A DNA stretch of 46,952 bases from Planctomycetota bacterium. GTDB taxonomy: Bacteria; Planctomycetota; Phycisphaerae; WQYP01. The stretch spans positions 1-46,952 of the forward strand of contig JAKBMM010000017.1 of NCBI GenBank assembly GCA_021831565.1, given 5' to 3'. Positions 7,224 through 46,952 of the stretch are shown in pieces; position 1 is the stretch's first letter; the number at the start of each line of letters is the position of its first letter. The notes below the pieces were generated by a model. That model searched no databases. It was given only the letters and a program-made list of their open reading frames with translations, and was not told the DNA's origin. The position numbers and the translations under genes are program-made.

Positions 7224-8300
7224 CTATATATATTTGTCGCCATACTTAGCAGACAACAATTCCACCATCTGCTTGACGTTCTGGTCTTTCCCGGACGCAC
7301 AGACCAGGGTGGCGGCGGGAGTATGAATCAGCGTAATCCCGCGGACTCCGATCACCGCGAATAAGTGTTCCGTCTGGGAAACCGCCAGCACATCGCCGGA
7401 GTCGATGGTCGCCAGATCGCAGCCGACGGCCCGATGGCCGTGCTTGTCCGGCGCAACAGTGGCGGAAAAACTCTCCCAGTTTCCGACATCCAGCCAGCGC
7501 ACCGGCATGGGAATCATGGCCACGTGCGGCGCTTTTTCCAGCACGGCATAGTCAATGCTTATTTTCGGCAGCGCCGGATAAACTTCCTGGAGAACGCTCT
7601 GATAACGCGGCGTATCCCAGGCCTGGGCGATGCGCATCACTCCCTGGTACGATTCCGGCAAATGCCGCTGAAGCTGCTGGAGTATGCTTGCCGCCTTCCA
7701 CACGAACATTCCGCTGTTCCAGCAGTATTGTCCGGAAGCCAGATATTCCCCGGCCGTCGCGGGGGAAGGCTTTTCACGAAAGGCCGCCACGCGGCAGGCC
7801 GGCTCCAATCCCGGCAGCGGGCCCCCGTTGCGTATGTAACCGTAGCCCGTGGCCGGACAAGTCGGAACAATGCCGAACGTAACCAGAAACTCCGGCGATT
7901 TTTCAACGGTCTGGAATCCCAGAGAAAGACAGCGCTGAAACTCGTCGATGGGTTCAATGATGTGATCGGCGGTAAGCACCGCCAGAACGGCATCCGGATC
8001 CATACGAAAAAGGATGGCGGCCGAAAAGGCCACCGCGTTGGCGGTATCGCGCCCCACCGGTTCGCCCAGCAGTTGATTCTCCGGAAGCATGGCCAGTTCA
8101 TCCAGCGCCTGGCGGGCGTAAACGGACGAAGTGCATACAAAAATCCGGGATGGATCGATCAACCCGCGCAGCCGGCCAACGGCGATTTCCAACAGCGATT
8201 TTCCGCCGATCAAACGCAGAAGCTGCTTGGGACGCCGGCGGGTGGAGAGCGGCCATAACCGCGTGCCCGTTCCACCGGCCATAATTACGCCATGACGCAT
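7224..8300 (-). CDS. manC: Mannose-1-phosphate guanylyltransferase
   Basis: A 358-residue sugar nucleotidyltransferase that makes GDP-mannose from mannose 1-phosphate and GTP, feeding glycan and envelope synthesis. The N-terminal signature GVIMAGGTGTRLWPLSTRRR followed by PKQLL is the nucleotide-binding loop of the family. VLTADHII supplies the metal-binding region, and the family's EKP, WNSGMFVW and SIDYAVLEK stretches are all present in order. ATG 8300 has GGGAGAT just upstream and is chosen over more distal in-frame starts. The protein is the short form, without the phosphomannose isomerase domain of bifunctional ManC enzymes, so the symbol is by analogy. It is divergent from the secreted protein gene at 8456. 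Confidence 0.9.
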   Translation of the reverse strand: MRHGVIMAGGTGTRLWPLSTRRRPKQLLRLIGGKSLLEIAVGRLRGLIDPSRIFVCTSSVYARQALDELAMLPENQLLGEPVGRDTANAVAFSAAILFRMDPDAVLAVLTADHIIEPIDEFQRCLSLGFQTVEKSPEFLVTFGIVPTCPATGYGYIRNGGPLPGLEPACRVAAFREKPSPATAGEYLASGQYCWNSGMFVWKAASILQQLQRHLPESYQGVMRIAQAWDTPRYQSVLQEVYPALPKISIDYAVLEKAPHVAMIPMPVRWLDVGNWESFSATVAPDKHGHRAVGCDLATIDSGDVLAVSQTEHLFAVIGVRGITLIHTPAATLVCASGKDQNVKQMVELLSAKYGDKYI

Positions 8301-40954: not shown

Positions 40955-42856
40955 TTACGCTGGTAGTGGGAACCGTGCGAACCGGAAAGAAGTCCGAAAT
41001 TTACGCCGGGAGCGCGGGAACAGGGGAATCCCGATGACTATCGGGAACAGGAGCAATGCGAGCGATGCCGGTTCCTGAACCTCGATAGCGCCGAGACTCT
41101 CCAGGCCCAGCGGACGCAAGTTGCCGTAGTAATCGTGCATCACATATTGATCGGTTGCGGGATCGAATACGTAGGCGGCCATGGAACCGGGTTGCAGGGA
41201 AAAATCGCCGTTGGCCGCATTAATGAATTGCGGGTCGCCGAACAACTCGTTGAAACTTATGGTCGTCGGCAAGTCGGAAATTGGGATGCTGGGGCTGGCA
41301 TCGTAATAGTAAATAACCTGCGGCTTGCCGGCGCCGGCAAACAGATTATCGAATGCTTGCATGGCGGGAGTCCCGGTGTCATGTTGAAAAAAAGCCGCAA
41401 ACGGAGTATCAATAATATTGCCGTATATTTGGGTATTGGTATTGTTGCTTTCCAGACCGATTGCGGCCCCATACGCGGCCGAGCCTCCGACCTCCTGCCC
41501 CAACACGATCGTGTTGAAACGAATCACGTTGCCCTGACCGGCATCGATGATTGCGCCATCGCGACCCGCTCGCCAGTCCGCGGTGGCCCCGGAAATGATT
41601 GTGTTTTGAATTACGTTGTTGTTGCCATAGAGTTGAATGGTTCCATTGGGACCTGTAAGAAGCACGCCATCGATAGTCGCGTTATTTCCAAAAATACCGA
41701 TGGGCCCATTGTCCATATGCCCGCCTGTAATGGCCACTTTTTCATTTCCGGAACTGACAACCCCGATCCCCATGTCAGGCCAGGCGGATACATTCATGTT
41801 CTGAATTGTCAGGCCGGCGATCGGCGTAGGATCCGTGGCGCTGGGCGTGCTGTGCGAATACATTGCGTCATACGGTCCATTGGGGTTTGTTGAGGTGTCG
41901 TTGATCCACTGCGATGTCGTGTTGGCGTAACGGTAGTCGGCATAAGCGGTAAAGGCGCTCGCCCCGCCAAACCCCTGATCCGGCATCGCATAACTCGCCG
42001 TTAAGTTTTTTCCCACGAAGCCCGTGCTATCCTCACAAGCGAAGGCGTGCTTACCGGTGGCGATAGCAGTGCAATTGAGCACTTGCACGTTCGTGCTGCC
42101 AAAGATATTAAATGCCATTCCCCCGTTGTACGCCGCCGATTCCCGCACCGTGAGATTATTGAAAACCAGATCATTCCGGGAGTTGCTGTTGACGACGTTT
42201 TGTACCACCGGAGCGGTATAAATGTTGCTGGAAGTGATTGGTCCGCCGGTGTTGACGTAAAGCCCGGGCGTGGACGCCGAACCATCGTAATACCACGTGT
42301 TGGATGTGCTCTCGACGTAGCCGATGTTCCCCGCGGCTGTGGACAGACCGCTTACCAACGAAGCGCTATGTGTGAACTGATGATTAACCAGGAAGGAATT
42401 AACCGTTGTAGTCGTGGGATAAAAGTAGGTATTTGTCGCATTGGCGACCGGCTCAAACGCCGTGGCGGGCACGACCACGCTTCCCCAGAATGTCGGGTCC
42501 GTACCCGTGCCATAATTGCCGTATGTGATCGGATCCGAAGGAGTTCCACTCGACGATGCTATAAGTTGCTGACCATACCAATTGCCGCCGTCTTGAAAAA
42601 GAATATCCGATCCGGGTGCGAAACTGGTGGAATTAACTTTGGATAGAGTTTGCCAGGGAGAATTTGCTGATATTCCACTGTTGTTGTCGTTACCGGTGGG
42701 GCTGACATAATAAATATTGCCGGCCGCTTGGCCCGCTAATCCACAACATATAACCAAGACTATTCCGTATGATATGCAGTGGCGTGTTGAGTGTTGAGTG
42801 TTGAGTGTTGAGTGTTGAGTGTTGAGTGTTGAGTGTTGAGTGTTGAGTGTTGCCAT
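40955..42856 (-). CDS. Secreted right-handed beta-helix protein with PEP-CTERM-like sorting tail
   Basis: A 633-residue exported protein. The body (about 45-590) is rich in asparagine, glycine, serine and threonine, with many short strand-turn repeats such as NATIDGVLLTGPNGTIQLYG and NNVIQNTIISG, typical of parallel beta-helices. It opens IYYVSPTGNDNNSG, as in pectate-lyase-like and other polysaccharide-binding proteins. Near the C-terminus EPASLALLL, a hydrophobic helix and RSRRK form a PEP-CTERM-type exosortase signal. It is followed by an unusual 14-residue tail. ATG 42856 has GGGAGATTCAG upstream. The first residues are tandem TLNTQHS copies encoded by a 7-bp repeat, placed before the signal peptide (ISYGIVLVICCGLAGQAAG). 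Repeat-length change would shift the frame. Confidence 0.8.
   Translation of the reverse strand: MATLNTQHSTLNTQHSTLNTQHSTRHCISYGIVLVICCGLAGQAAGNIYYVSPTGNDNNSGISANSPWQTLSKVNSTSFAPGSDILFQDGGNWYGQQLIASSSGTPSDPITYGNYGTGTDPTFWGSVVVPATAFEPVANATNTYFYPTTTTVNSFLVNHQFTHSASLVSGLSTAAGNIGYVESTSNTWYYDGSASTPGLYVNTGGPITSSNIYTAPVVQNVVNSNSRNDLVFNNLTVRESAAYNGGMAFNIFGSTNVQVLNCTAIATGKHAFACEDSTGFVGKNLTASYAMPDQGFGGASAFTAYADYRYANTTSQWINDTSTNPNGPYDAMYSHSTPSATDPTPIAGLTIQNMNVSAWPDMGIGVVSSGNEKVAITGGHMDNGPIGIFGNNATIDGVLLTGPNGTIQLYGNNNVIQNTIISGATADWRAGRDGAIIDAGQGNVIRFNTIVLGQEVGGSAAYGAAIGLESNNTNTQIYGNIIDTPFAAFFQHDTGTPAMQAFDNLFAGAGKPQVIYYYDASPSIPISDLPTTISFNELFGDPQFINAANGDFSLQPGSMAAYVFDPATDQYVMHDYYGNLRPLGLESLGAIEVQEPASLALLLFPIVIGIPLFPRSRRKFRTSFRFARFPLPA
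42784..42852. repeat. Heptanucleotide tandem repeat (GTGTTGA)n
   Basis: Nine complete GTGTTGA units and six bases of a tenth run from 42784 to 42852, with no interruption. On the minus strand they encode TLNTQHS repeats directly after the MA start of the beta-helix gene. Confidence 0.95.
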
Positions 42857-43019
42857 CTGAATCTCCCTTAAATTACGAGACCTACCTGTAAGTATAAACC
42901 GGATCAAGAAAATGTCAAGAAAAATAACTATTCATCCAAAAAAACTGAAGCCAATATTCGCGTTCACGATCATTGCGCCTCCTGTATAGTGTGTTACCCA
43001 CTATTGAGTCGGTGCGGAG
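42857..43019. other. Intergenic region upstream of the beta-helix gene
   Basis: An AT-richer stretch with the ribosome site of the minus-strand beta-helix gene at its left end. No gene is visible. Confidence 0.4.
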
Positions 43020-43125: not shown

Positions 43126-43244
43126 ATCGACCGCAACTTAACCCAGGGCACGCGGAGTATCTGCGGACACCAGAGGCGCCAACGACTATGGACCGCTGCG
43201 GCCACATGCCACCAGCAAGGTCGATCGCGGACCGATTATCAATG

Positions 43245-43314
43245 TGTGGCCATCCAAGTGTGGCCATCCAAGCGTGGCCATCCAAGTGTGGCCATCCAAG
43301 TGTGGCCATCCAAG
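43245..43314. repeat. 14-bp tandem repeat, five copies
   Basis: TGTGGCCATCCAAG occurs five times head to tail (43245, 43259, 43273, 43287, 43301). The third copy, and the bases that follow the fifth, begin with C instead of T. The unit contains the palindrome TGGCCA. The unit is not a multiple of three and no gene is evident, so it is a non-coding minisatellite. Confidence 0.92.
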
Positions 43315-43649: not shown

Positions 43650-43935
43650 ATGCGTTGGTTAGCATCGGAACTGGAGTCGTATGGCAACAGGATGCCGAAT
43701 CCGTGGAGTTTGGTCAAGGACCCGGAGGAATTCTGGGGCGATTGGAGCACCCACGGCCGCCGGCTGCTCTGCAACCTGCTGGAAGGAACGATGGAGATCT
43801 GGCGGGATGAGTATGTTCAGGCCGCGCCGCATCGCGGCGGAACGACGTGCCTACCGCAACGGCTACTACCTGCGGAAGCACTGGCGCACTTTTCAAGGCA
43901 GCGTAAAGGTACTCGTGGCCGTTGTTTCTACCAGA
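43650..43935 (+). pseudogene. Frameshifted IS256-like transposase, N-terminal fragment
   Basis: The frame starts MRWLASELESYGNRMPNPWS after GGAGGACACGCCC. It reads to about EIWRDEYVQAAPHR, then similarity continues in another frame as AERRAYRNGYYLRKHWRTF. The 'RxAYRNGYYxRxxxT' stretch is typical of the N-terminus of IS256/mutator-type transposases. A frameshift near 43815-43840 separates the halves, and the catalytic domain is absent. Confidence 0.5.
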
Positions 43936-43971
43936 CTGGAAGCGTATAATACCAATAGGAATGGTCGGTCA

Positions 43972-44183
43972 GCAGACGGCGGGCCTGTGACAGTTTCTGC
44001 AACCGGATAAGTTTGGGGGTAACCGTTCACGGGCCAAAAATCGCTTAAAATCAAAGAAATAATGTGGAATCTGAAGTTTATGGGGCATAAAAATCACAAA
44101 AAAAGTGCTCTGCAAAGCAAAAAGTGGCGTTTTTTTGCTGATTACGCCACTTTTGCAGAAACTGTCACAGGCCCGCAGACGGC
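43972..44183. mobile_element. MITE with 21-bp terminal inverted repeats and a 9-bp target duplication
   Basis: The element spans 43981-44174. Its ends are GGGCCTGTGACAGTTTCTG plus CA, and the exact complement at 44154-44174. GCAGACGGC occurs directly on both sides (43972-43980 and 44175-44183), a perfect 9-bp target duplication. The interior is AT-rich and non-coding, includes an R1-like GTAACCGTTCACGGG, and contains a second hairpin (GCAAAAAGTGGCGT with ACGCCACTTTTGC). The same terminal sequence starts another element at 46831. Confidence 0.9.
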
Positions 44184-44284
44184 TCAACGGAGTCGCGGGA
44201 CTTGACCGATAGAACGCCTCTGGATAGCATAATGGGCTGTTTGTGAATTGGTCCACGCTCGTGCCATTTATGGTACGGCGTGTG

Positions 44285-44345: not shown

Positions 44346-45224
44346 ATGCGAATCGCGCTGTTTTTTGACGGAAAGAATTTTTCTTCTGGCTGGCGCGATA
44401 AGACTGGCTCACGGCCGATTGACTTGCACACACTTGCCCTATGGATCGTTTCCCAGGTTGGAGGATCAGATTCACGATTTGTTGGCGCCCATTATTACAC
44501 GGGCGTCGAAACGGGGCCTGCGGCCGAGACTGAAGCCCAAAAAAACTTGGCGACATTTCTCAGCAAGGTGGAACTGCTGCCGGGCTTCTTTGTGCGGCGA
44601 TTCGAGCGTAAAGCAAAGCGCATACGTTGCCGGCACTGCAACACGGAAAATGTATTCACTCAGGAAAAAGAGGTGGATACGTCTATGGTGGCCGATATGC
44701 TCCGCCTGGCTGCTGTAGACGCATTTGATGCCCTGGTTTTGATCTCGGGGGACGCTGACTTGACTCCGGCGGTGGAGGGTGTGGAAAGTCTCGGCAAGCA
44801 GGTATATGTGGCAAGTTGGGGTGGTTCTGGGCTTTCAAAAAGGATACGTAAGGCTGCATTTGATCACATTGATCTGATGGAGGGGATCGAAAGTGCCGCG
44901 TTCCAGGCGTCAGCTACACCTGTTACGCAAAATGAGGCGGTAACTTTGGAGAAGAACAAAAAGTTAGGTGCTCCGGTTACCAATGATCTGCATGGAAGCG
45001 GCGAAGATGCCTTCCTTGAAGCGCTAAAGCAAGCTGAGAAACACTTTAGCACCGCATATGTGGGCTTGCACTACTTTGTGAAGAATTGGAAATCACCAGC
45101 CTTGACAGCAGACACACAGATTCGCTCCCGTCTGCTCGAAACGCTCATCAAAAAGGGCCTAGTTGAGAAATATACCGCCGATGACCAAAGCCAGGCCATT
45201 CGAATAAAAGCGACCCCAACTTGA
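44346..45224 (+). CDS. NYN-domain (LabA/DUF88-like) putative ribonuclease
   Basis: A 292-residue protein with a PIN-like NYN nuclease fold. The expected acidic metal ligands are D8 in MRIALFFDGKN, D111 and D117 in VDTSMVADML, and D136/D138 in LISGDADLTP. A small insertion at about 95-98 carries a CRHC pair that could bind zinc. After a low-complexity linker, residues about 225-290 form a helical, winged-helix-like domain, probably for nucleic-acid binding. The AT content is somewhat higher than in the housekeeping genes. It sits between a MITE and a truncated gene, in a region of mobile and toxin-antitoxin debris. RNA decay or defence is likely; a specific function is not known. Confidence 0.82.
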   Translation: MRIALFFDGKNFSSGWRDKTGSRPIDLHTLALWIVSQVGGSDSRFVGAHYYTGVETGPAAETEAQKNLATFLSKVELLPGFFVRRFERKAKRIRCRHCNTENVFTQEKEVDTSMVADMLRLAAVDAFDALVLISGDADLTPAVEGVESLGKQVYVASWGGSGLSKRIRKAAFDHIDLMEGIESAAFQASATPVTQNEAVTLEKNKKLGAPVTNDLHGSGEDAFLEALKQAEKHFSTAYVGLHYFVKNWKSPALTADTQIRSRLLETLIKKGLVEKYTADDQSQAIRIKATPT

Positions 45225-46830: not shown

Positions 46831-46952
46831 GGGCCTGTGACAGTTTCTGTCCGGGGTCGGCGATTGGTAGAATGGGAGAAACTGATCCACAGGAAGTGGT
46901 TCGGAAGTTATGGCTTCTGTTCAAGGAGGAACCATCATGCCCGCGACAACCA
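46831..46952 (+). mobile_element. Left end of an IS-like element (cut by the window end)
   Basis: GGGCCTGTGACAGTTTCTG at 46831-46849 is identical to the terminal repeat of the MITE at 43981. About 85 bases further on, AAGGAGGA precedes an ATG at 46937, the likely start of a transposase gene, of which only MPATT is visible. The element is probably the autonomous partner of the MITE. Confidence 0.6.
46937..46952 (+). CDS. Start of a probable transposase gene (partial)
   Basis: Only five codons (MPATT) lie in the window. The call rests on the strong AAGGAGGA site seven bases upstream and on the position just inside an IS-like terminal repeat. Confidence 0.4.

Follow-up and report, generated by a model that had tools for sequence, protein, structure and literature searches.

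An array of perfect heptanucleotide repeats that begins directly behind a start codon raises the question of whether it acts as an on/off switch for the gene that it opens, or whether it came to lie there without any such role. We addressed this question for a 633-aa gene of a Planctomycetota bacterium (GTDB lineage Bacteria; Planctomycetota; Phycisphaerae; WQYP01; GenBank assembly GCA_021831565.1), which lies on a stretch of 46,952 nt from contig JAKBMM010000017.1 that we refer to as the window. The on/off switch is a strong candidate, though not a proven one, since copy-number change, expression and selection for switching are steps that we infer. The features of the locus are collected in Table 1.

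Table 1. Features at and around the array-bearing gene, in window coordinates
Feature	Position	Strand	Basis or remark
14-bp tandem repeat GTGTGGCCATCCAA, 5.1 copies	43244..43314	+	about 330 nt upstream of the promoter
Sigma-70-like promoter, TTGACA-16-TATACT	42891..42918	-	11 of 12 consensus matches; simple consensus and reading
Shine-Dalgarno sequence AGGGAG, 6 nt before the ATG	42863..42868	-	direct reading
Start codon ATG	42854..42856	-	Shine-Dalgarno and promoter spacing; homologue start codons align to it
Whole ORF, 633 aa	40955..42856	-	
Heptanucleotide array (TCAACAC)n	42784..42852	-	9.86 perfect copies, coding TLNTQHS repeats
Signal-peptide h- and c-region RHCISYGIVLVICCGLAGQAAG	42719..42784	-	by eye; aligned with homologue signal peptides
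Probable beta-helix body, fold like glycan-active enzymes and adhesins	41081..42718	-	four homologues, PDB matches, AlphaFold/Foldseek
Degenerate PEP-CTERM-like tail VQEPASLALLLFPIVIGIPLFPRSRRK	41000..41080	-	resemblance; without Pfam match

The array was identified by TRF as 9.9 copies of GTGTTGA over 69 nt, with 100% matches and a score of 138. This bears out the initial annotation, which had described nine and a fraction perfect units between the ATG and the signal peptide; the span given there, 42784–42856, was right at its start, but its end took in the ATG and one further base. On the minus strand the DNA reads ATG and a single G, then the 69-nt array from base 5 of the ORF, and then GCCACTGC, so that in-frame translation runs as MATLNTQHSTLNTQHSTLNTQHST-RHCISYGIVLVICCGLAGQAAG-NIYYVSPTGNDNN and onwards to a total of 633 aa. 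Since the unit TCAACAC encodes TLNTQHS in every forward frame, the array itself is free of stop codons. Such a perfect GTGTTGA array is far beyond chance. A 27-nt query from the array had no second match in the 2.81-Mb genome, and a 22-nt query found only the array itself in this genome and had no match in 60 relatives. For that reason, the reading of the GTGTTGA/TCAACAC unit as a dispersed element of the window's genome was rejected. Across the phylum, the array stretch was present in two of 392 sampled genomes, one of them the window's own, and a literature search with the repeat string itself returned unrelated matches only.

By direct reading and a simple consensus, the elements at the start of the gene follow in the order promoter, Shine-Dalgarno sequence, ATG, array and signal peptide. 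We also looked for a start of translation downstream of the repeat, which the initial annotation had named as a finding that would speak against a switch. The only start codon that the body frame offers between the array and the mature protein is a TTG inside the hydrophobic core of the signal peptide, and a downstream start was therefore rejected. Together with the spacing of promoter and Shine-Dalgarno sequence and the start codons of the homologues, this is why we take the ATG at 42856 as the start.

If transcription starts from the promoter at 42918–42891, and if translation proceeds from this ATG through the array into the signal peptide and body, then adding or removing one or two 7-nt units would shift the signal peptide and the body out of the reading frame, while a change of three units would restore the protein with an n-region 7 residues longer or shorter. 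We computed the frame outcomes for −9 to +6 units. One unit fewer leaves a peptide of 29 aa and one unit more a peptide of 57 aa; two fewer leave 50 aa and two more 36 aa; full length, plus or minus 7 aa, returns with three units fewer (626 aa) or three more (640 aa). These values agree with the frame arithmetic proposed beforehand. The sequenced state is ON, with the array in frame with signal peptide, body and tail. As in switches of the NeuO type, the unit is not a multiple of three and lies inside the coding region near its 5′ end, and in these computations its gain or loss toggles between a full-length and a truncated product.

Homologues of the gene were compared from four genomes, G002 (61% identity), G017 (59%), G014 (44%) and G085 (34%); a fifth genome, G001, is of the same genus as the window's and had no detectable homologue. 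In all four alignments the signal peptide follows directly after the ATG and the array is absent, and promoters can be read upstream of the ATG in G002 (TTGACT-17-TATAAT) and G017 (TTGACT-17-TAAACT). The three codon positions differ from those of G002 by 31, 23 and 62%; the 633-aa gene is thus conserved as a coding sequence. Because the homologous signal peptides begin right after the ATG and only the TTG is available downstream, the alignments indicate that the array either extends or replaces the n-region of an ordinary signal peptide.

The 633-aa protein matched no family in Pfam or NCBIfam. Sequence matches in the PDB were the lacto-N-biosidases 7v6m and 6kqs, over residues 45–123. An AlphaFold model built from five sequences had a mean pLDDT of 60 and an unreliable C-terminal part, and was used for fold class only; the best Foldseek matches of this model of low-to-moderate confidence include XylC, BT_1002, LnbX, PL6 lyases and the adhesin PfbA. 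The protein can reasonably be read as a beta-helix of glycan-active or adhesive type, and the signal peptide seen by eye, the weak model and the sequence matches are compatible with an exported, probably sugar-handling product that may act at the surface. The earlier label of a PEP-CTERM-like protein suits the gene family, in which the G014 homologue passes PF07589 (that of G002 falls below the cut-off), but it suits the window's own protein less well, as its degenerate tail is unmatched by PF07589. The genome combines an exosortase with many PEP-CTERM proteins: there is one exosortase (PF09721 at G000:C78, E 1.9e-51) and there are 42 PEP-CTERM matches (PF07589) at E ≤ 1.

The DNA upstream of the gene holds further repeats. 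The 14-bp tandem repeat of Table 1 occurs nowhere else in the genome. At 43966–44189, a pair of 37-nt inverted repeats, 86% complementary and 150 nt apart, has GGGCCTGTGACAGTTTCTG ends, of which a further copy lies at 46831–46849; the pair and the end copy at 46831 represent a small MITE-like element. A short ORF at 43650–43949 resembles a transposase fragment by eye and had no match in a Pfam search, and the ORF at 44346–45224 encodes an NYN-domain protein (PF01936, E 2.3e-16).

A second heptamer array of the genome came to light when 149 kb of DNA surrounding PEP-CTERM genes was scanned for SSRs. It consists of 9.1 copies of TCTCTGC at G000:C43:8379-8442 (L208:5380-5443) and is unrelated in unit to the GTGTTGA array of the window; searches of the rest of the genome and of 60 relatives gave no further match. 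This C43 array starts 10 nt after an ATG that is preceded by GGAGG, and a promoter-like TTGACT-17-TAAATT can be read upstream. The adjacent gene has PEP-CTERM and dockerin matches and its own Shine-Dalgarno sequence and ATG at L208:5494, downstream of the array, and so does not need the array to start its body. At present the frame that carries the array does not match that of this gene and terminates 23 nt beyond the gene's start; by computation, a gain of two units or a loss of one would join them into a single reading frame. The C43 array would switch between an overlapping upstream reading frame, the present state, and an N-terminally extended protein.

To set these two arrays against a background, heptamer arrays were counted with TRF in 1.15 Mb of the window's genome outside the window, a sample made up of selected PEP-CTERM regions and the first stretches of many contigs. 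The sample held two arrays, TCTCTGC x9.1 and CGGCGCC x4.4, and at 0.17 per 100 kb the genome does not carry the dispersed repeat class of many, mostly intergenic heptanucleotide arrays. Four genomes of the same family do hold arrays of many different units, mostly outside called genes, at densities per 100 kb of 228 in G018 (from one 11-kb stretch), 25 in G010, 20 in G017 and 19 in G008; the stretches sampled from G001 and G003 held none. With the window counted, two of the three known arrays of the window's genome lie within 15 nt of a Shine-Dalgarno-ATG start that reads into the array, against 0.07 expected, although this is a small test in which the window's array was picked for its position and the C43 region was chosen for its PEP-CTERM genes. 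Leaving the window's array out, the count is one of two against about 0.045 expected. In the relatives, 3 of 69 heptamer arrays adjoin such a start against 2.0 expected, which is the background rate.

The TCAACAC unit itself is widespread. Among GTDB genomes, at least 118 stretches, spread over many phyla, contain (TCAACAC)n arrays, and among the matches listed, those within 60 nt upstream of called ORF starts were sense-oriented in 37 cases and antisense in 6, on crude gene calls. ORFs that meet the array in antisense often run into it, where it presents TGA in every frame (again on crude gene calls). On the minus strand of a Burkholderiales contig, L082, an array at about 7592–7640 of the reverse complement lies between a possible ATG and a MobA-like body; the protein would begin MEN-STLNTQHSTL-ITGVILAGGQGRRMGG, and another heptamer array precedes it.

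How far these observations favor a switch depends on what else could have placed a perfect array in this position. A stray heptanucleotide array, lengthened by slippage at an N-terminus that tolerates it or within a gene that the cell can spare, and with no selected switching, is a real alternative, because heptamer arrays are common and mostly intergenic in the family and the TCAACAC array recurs in many phyla. Period-7 arrays dominate the repeats of G018, G010, G017 and G008, the homologues manage without an array, and PMC4679880 cites Mrazek 2007 for heptanucleotides being the most abundant class of long repeats in most bacterial genomes; a neutral origin of the array is plausible on these grounds. 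Against this stand the perfection of the array and the intact 633-aa frame, and the window's genome is nearly free of heptamer arrays, yet two of its three known arrays sit at the starts of PEP-CTERM-type genes. We regard a stray array as quite possible, if short of probable.

It is also conceivable that the CA-rich, stop-free repeat works as an RNA element that sets translation initiation or is bound by a protein, with frame switching being incidental. This would be in keeping with the proposal of such elements in Beggiatoaceae, where TAACTGA arrays closely precede start codons (PMC4679880), with the graded action of the hmw promoter heptamers (PMC8262952), and with the excess of sense-oriented (TCAACAC)n arrays upstream of ORF starts noted above. 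The window's array, however, comes after the ATG and has to be translated, and every single-unit change breaks the frame, a high cost for a mere tuner, so we consider this explanation unlikely. A wrong repeat number or a chimeric array produced in assembly seems highly improbable: the genome is a draft of 86 contigs and short reads can misjudge arrays, but 69 nt fits within a typical read, and the flanks form one unit of promoter, Shine-Dalgarno sequence, ATG and signal peptide that keeps its frame and matches the homologues in promoter and start. To the remaining reading, that the array is a slippage-prone SSR acting as a translational on/off switch of the NeuO type, we would give roughly even chances. 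The phase-variation switch proposed in the initial annotation thus holds up in part: the layout, the frames, the homologues without an array, the exosortase and the second array speak for it, while the abundance of heptamer arrays in relatives and the occurrence of TCAACAC in many phyla weaken it.

Of the systems described so far, the closest is neuO of E. coli K1, a phage-borne capsule O-acetyltransferase gene with an AAGACTC heptanucleotide repeat in its 5′ coding region, which yields the full-length protein only if the repeat number is divisible by three and carries 3–53 repeats among genomes (PMC13001214). The likeness lies in the position of a heptanucleotide repeat in the 5′ coding region and in the frame dependence of the full-length product. 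The differences are that neuO is prophage-borne, modifies the capsule and varies in repeat number, with a unit sequence and a protein unrelated to those of the window, whereas the window's array precedes the signal peptide of an exported protein and is known from one sequenced repeat number. The hmw1A and hmw2A genes of Haemophilus influenzae likewise carry heptamer repeats at surface protein genes, but these are situated between promoters and have a graded effect, unlike the translated array of the window (PMC8262952). The TAACTGA arrays of Beggiatoaceae, cyanobacteria and Bacteroidetes share the proximity of heptamers to start codons and the scattering over unrelated phyla; they differ in being short, many per genome and mostly upstream of the start codon, with a proposed role in regulation rather than frame switching (PMC4679880). 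The GGGAATC and GGGGA(C/T)T repeats of Xanthomonas and Nostoc are also bacterial heptamer arrays of variable length, but they are G-rich and numerous, and their authors judged a role in phase variation unlikely (PMC4692102).

In the portions of the literature available to us, papers that treat exosortases together with phase variation, or phase-variable genes in planctomycetes, describe no switch of this kind. Akkermansia belongs to a related phylum. It has an exosortase, and the only switching proposed for it is by mononucleotide repeats (PMC3048395). For the genome of this uncultured, apparently environmental bacterium we would tentatively suggest, as a possible but doubtful generalization, that the start codons of a few genes for exported proteins of exosortase type carry heptanucleotide contingency loci, every locus with a heptamer of its own, and that these heptamers come from a repeat-forming process that is unrestrained in the intergenic DNA of relatives. 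Most known cases of SSR phase variation come from host-adapted bacteria. If the switch is real, free-living bacteria would also vary their PEP-CTERM surface proteins in phase, by frame switching like that of NeuO, and a frame switch in front of a PEP-CTERM-type signal peptide in an environmental lineage would suggest that bet-hedging with surface proteins takes place there too.
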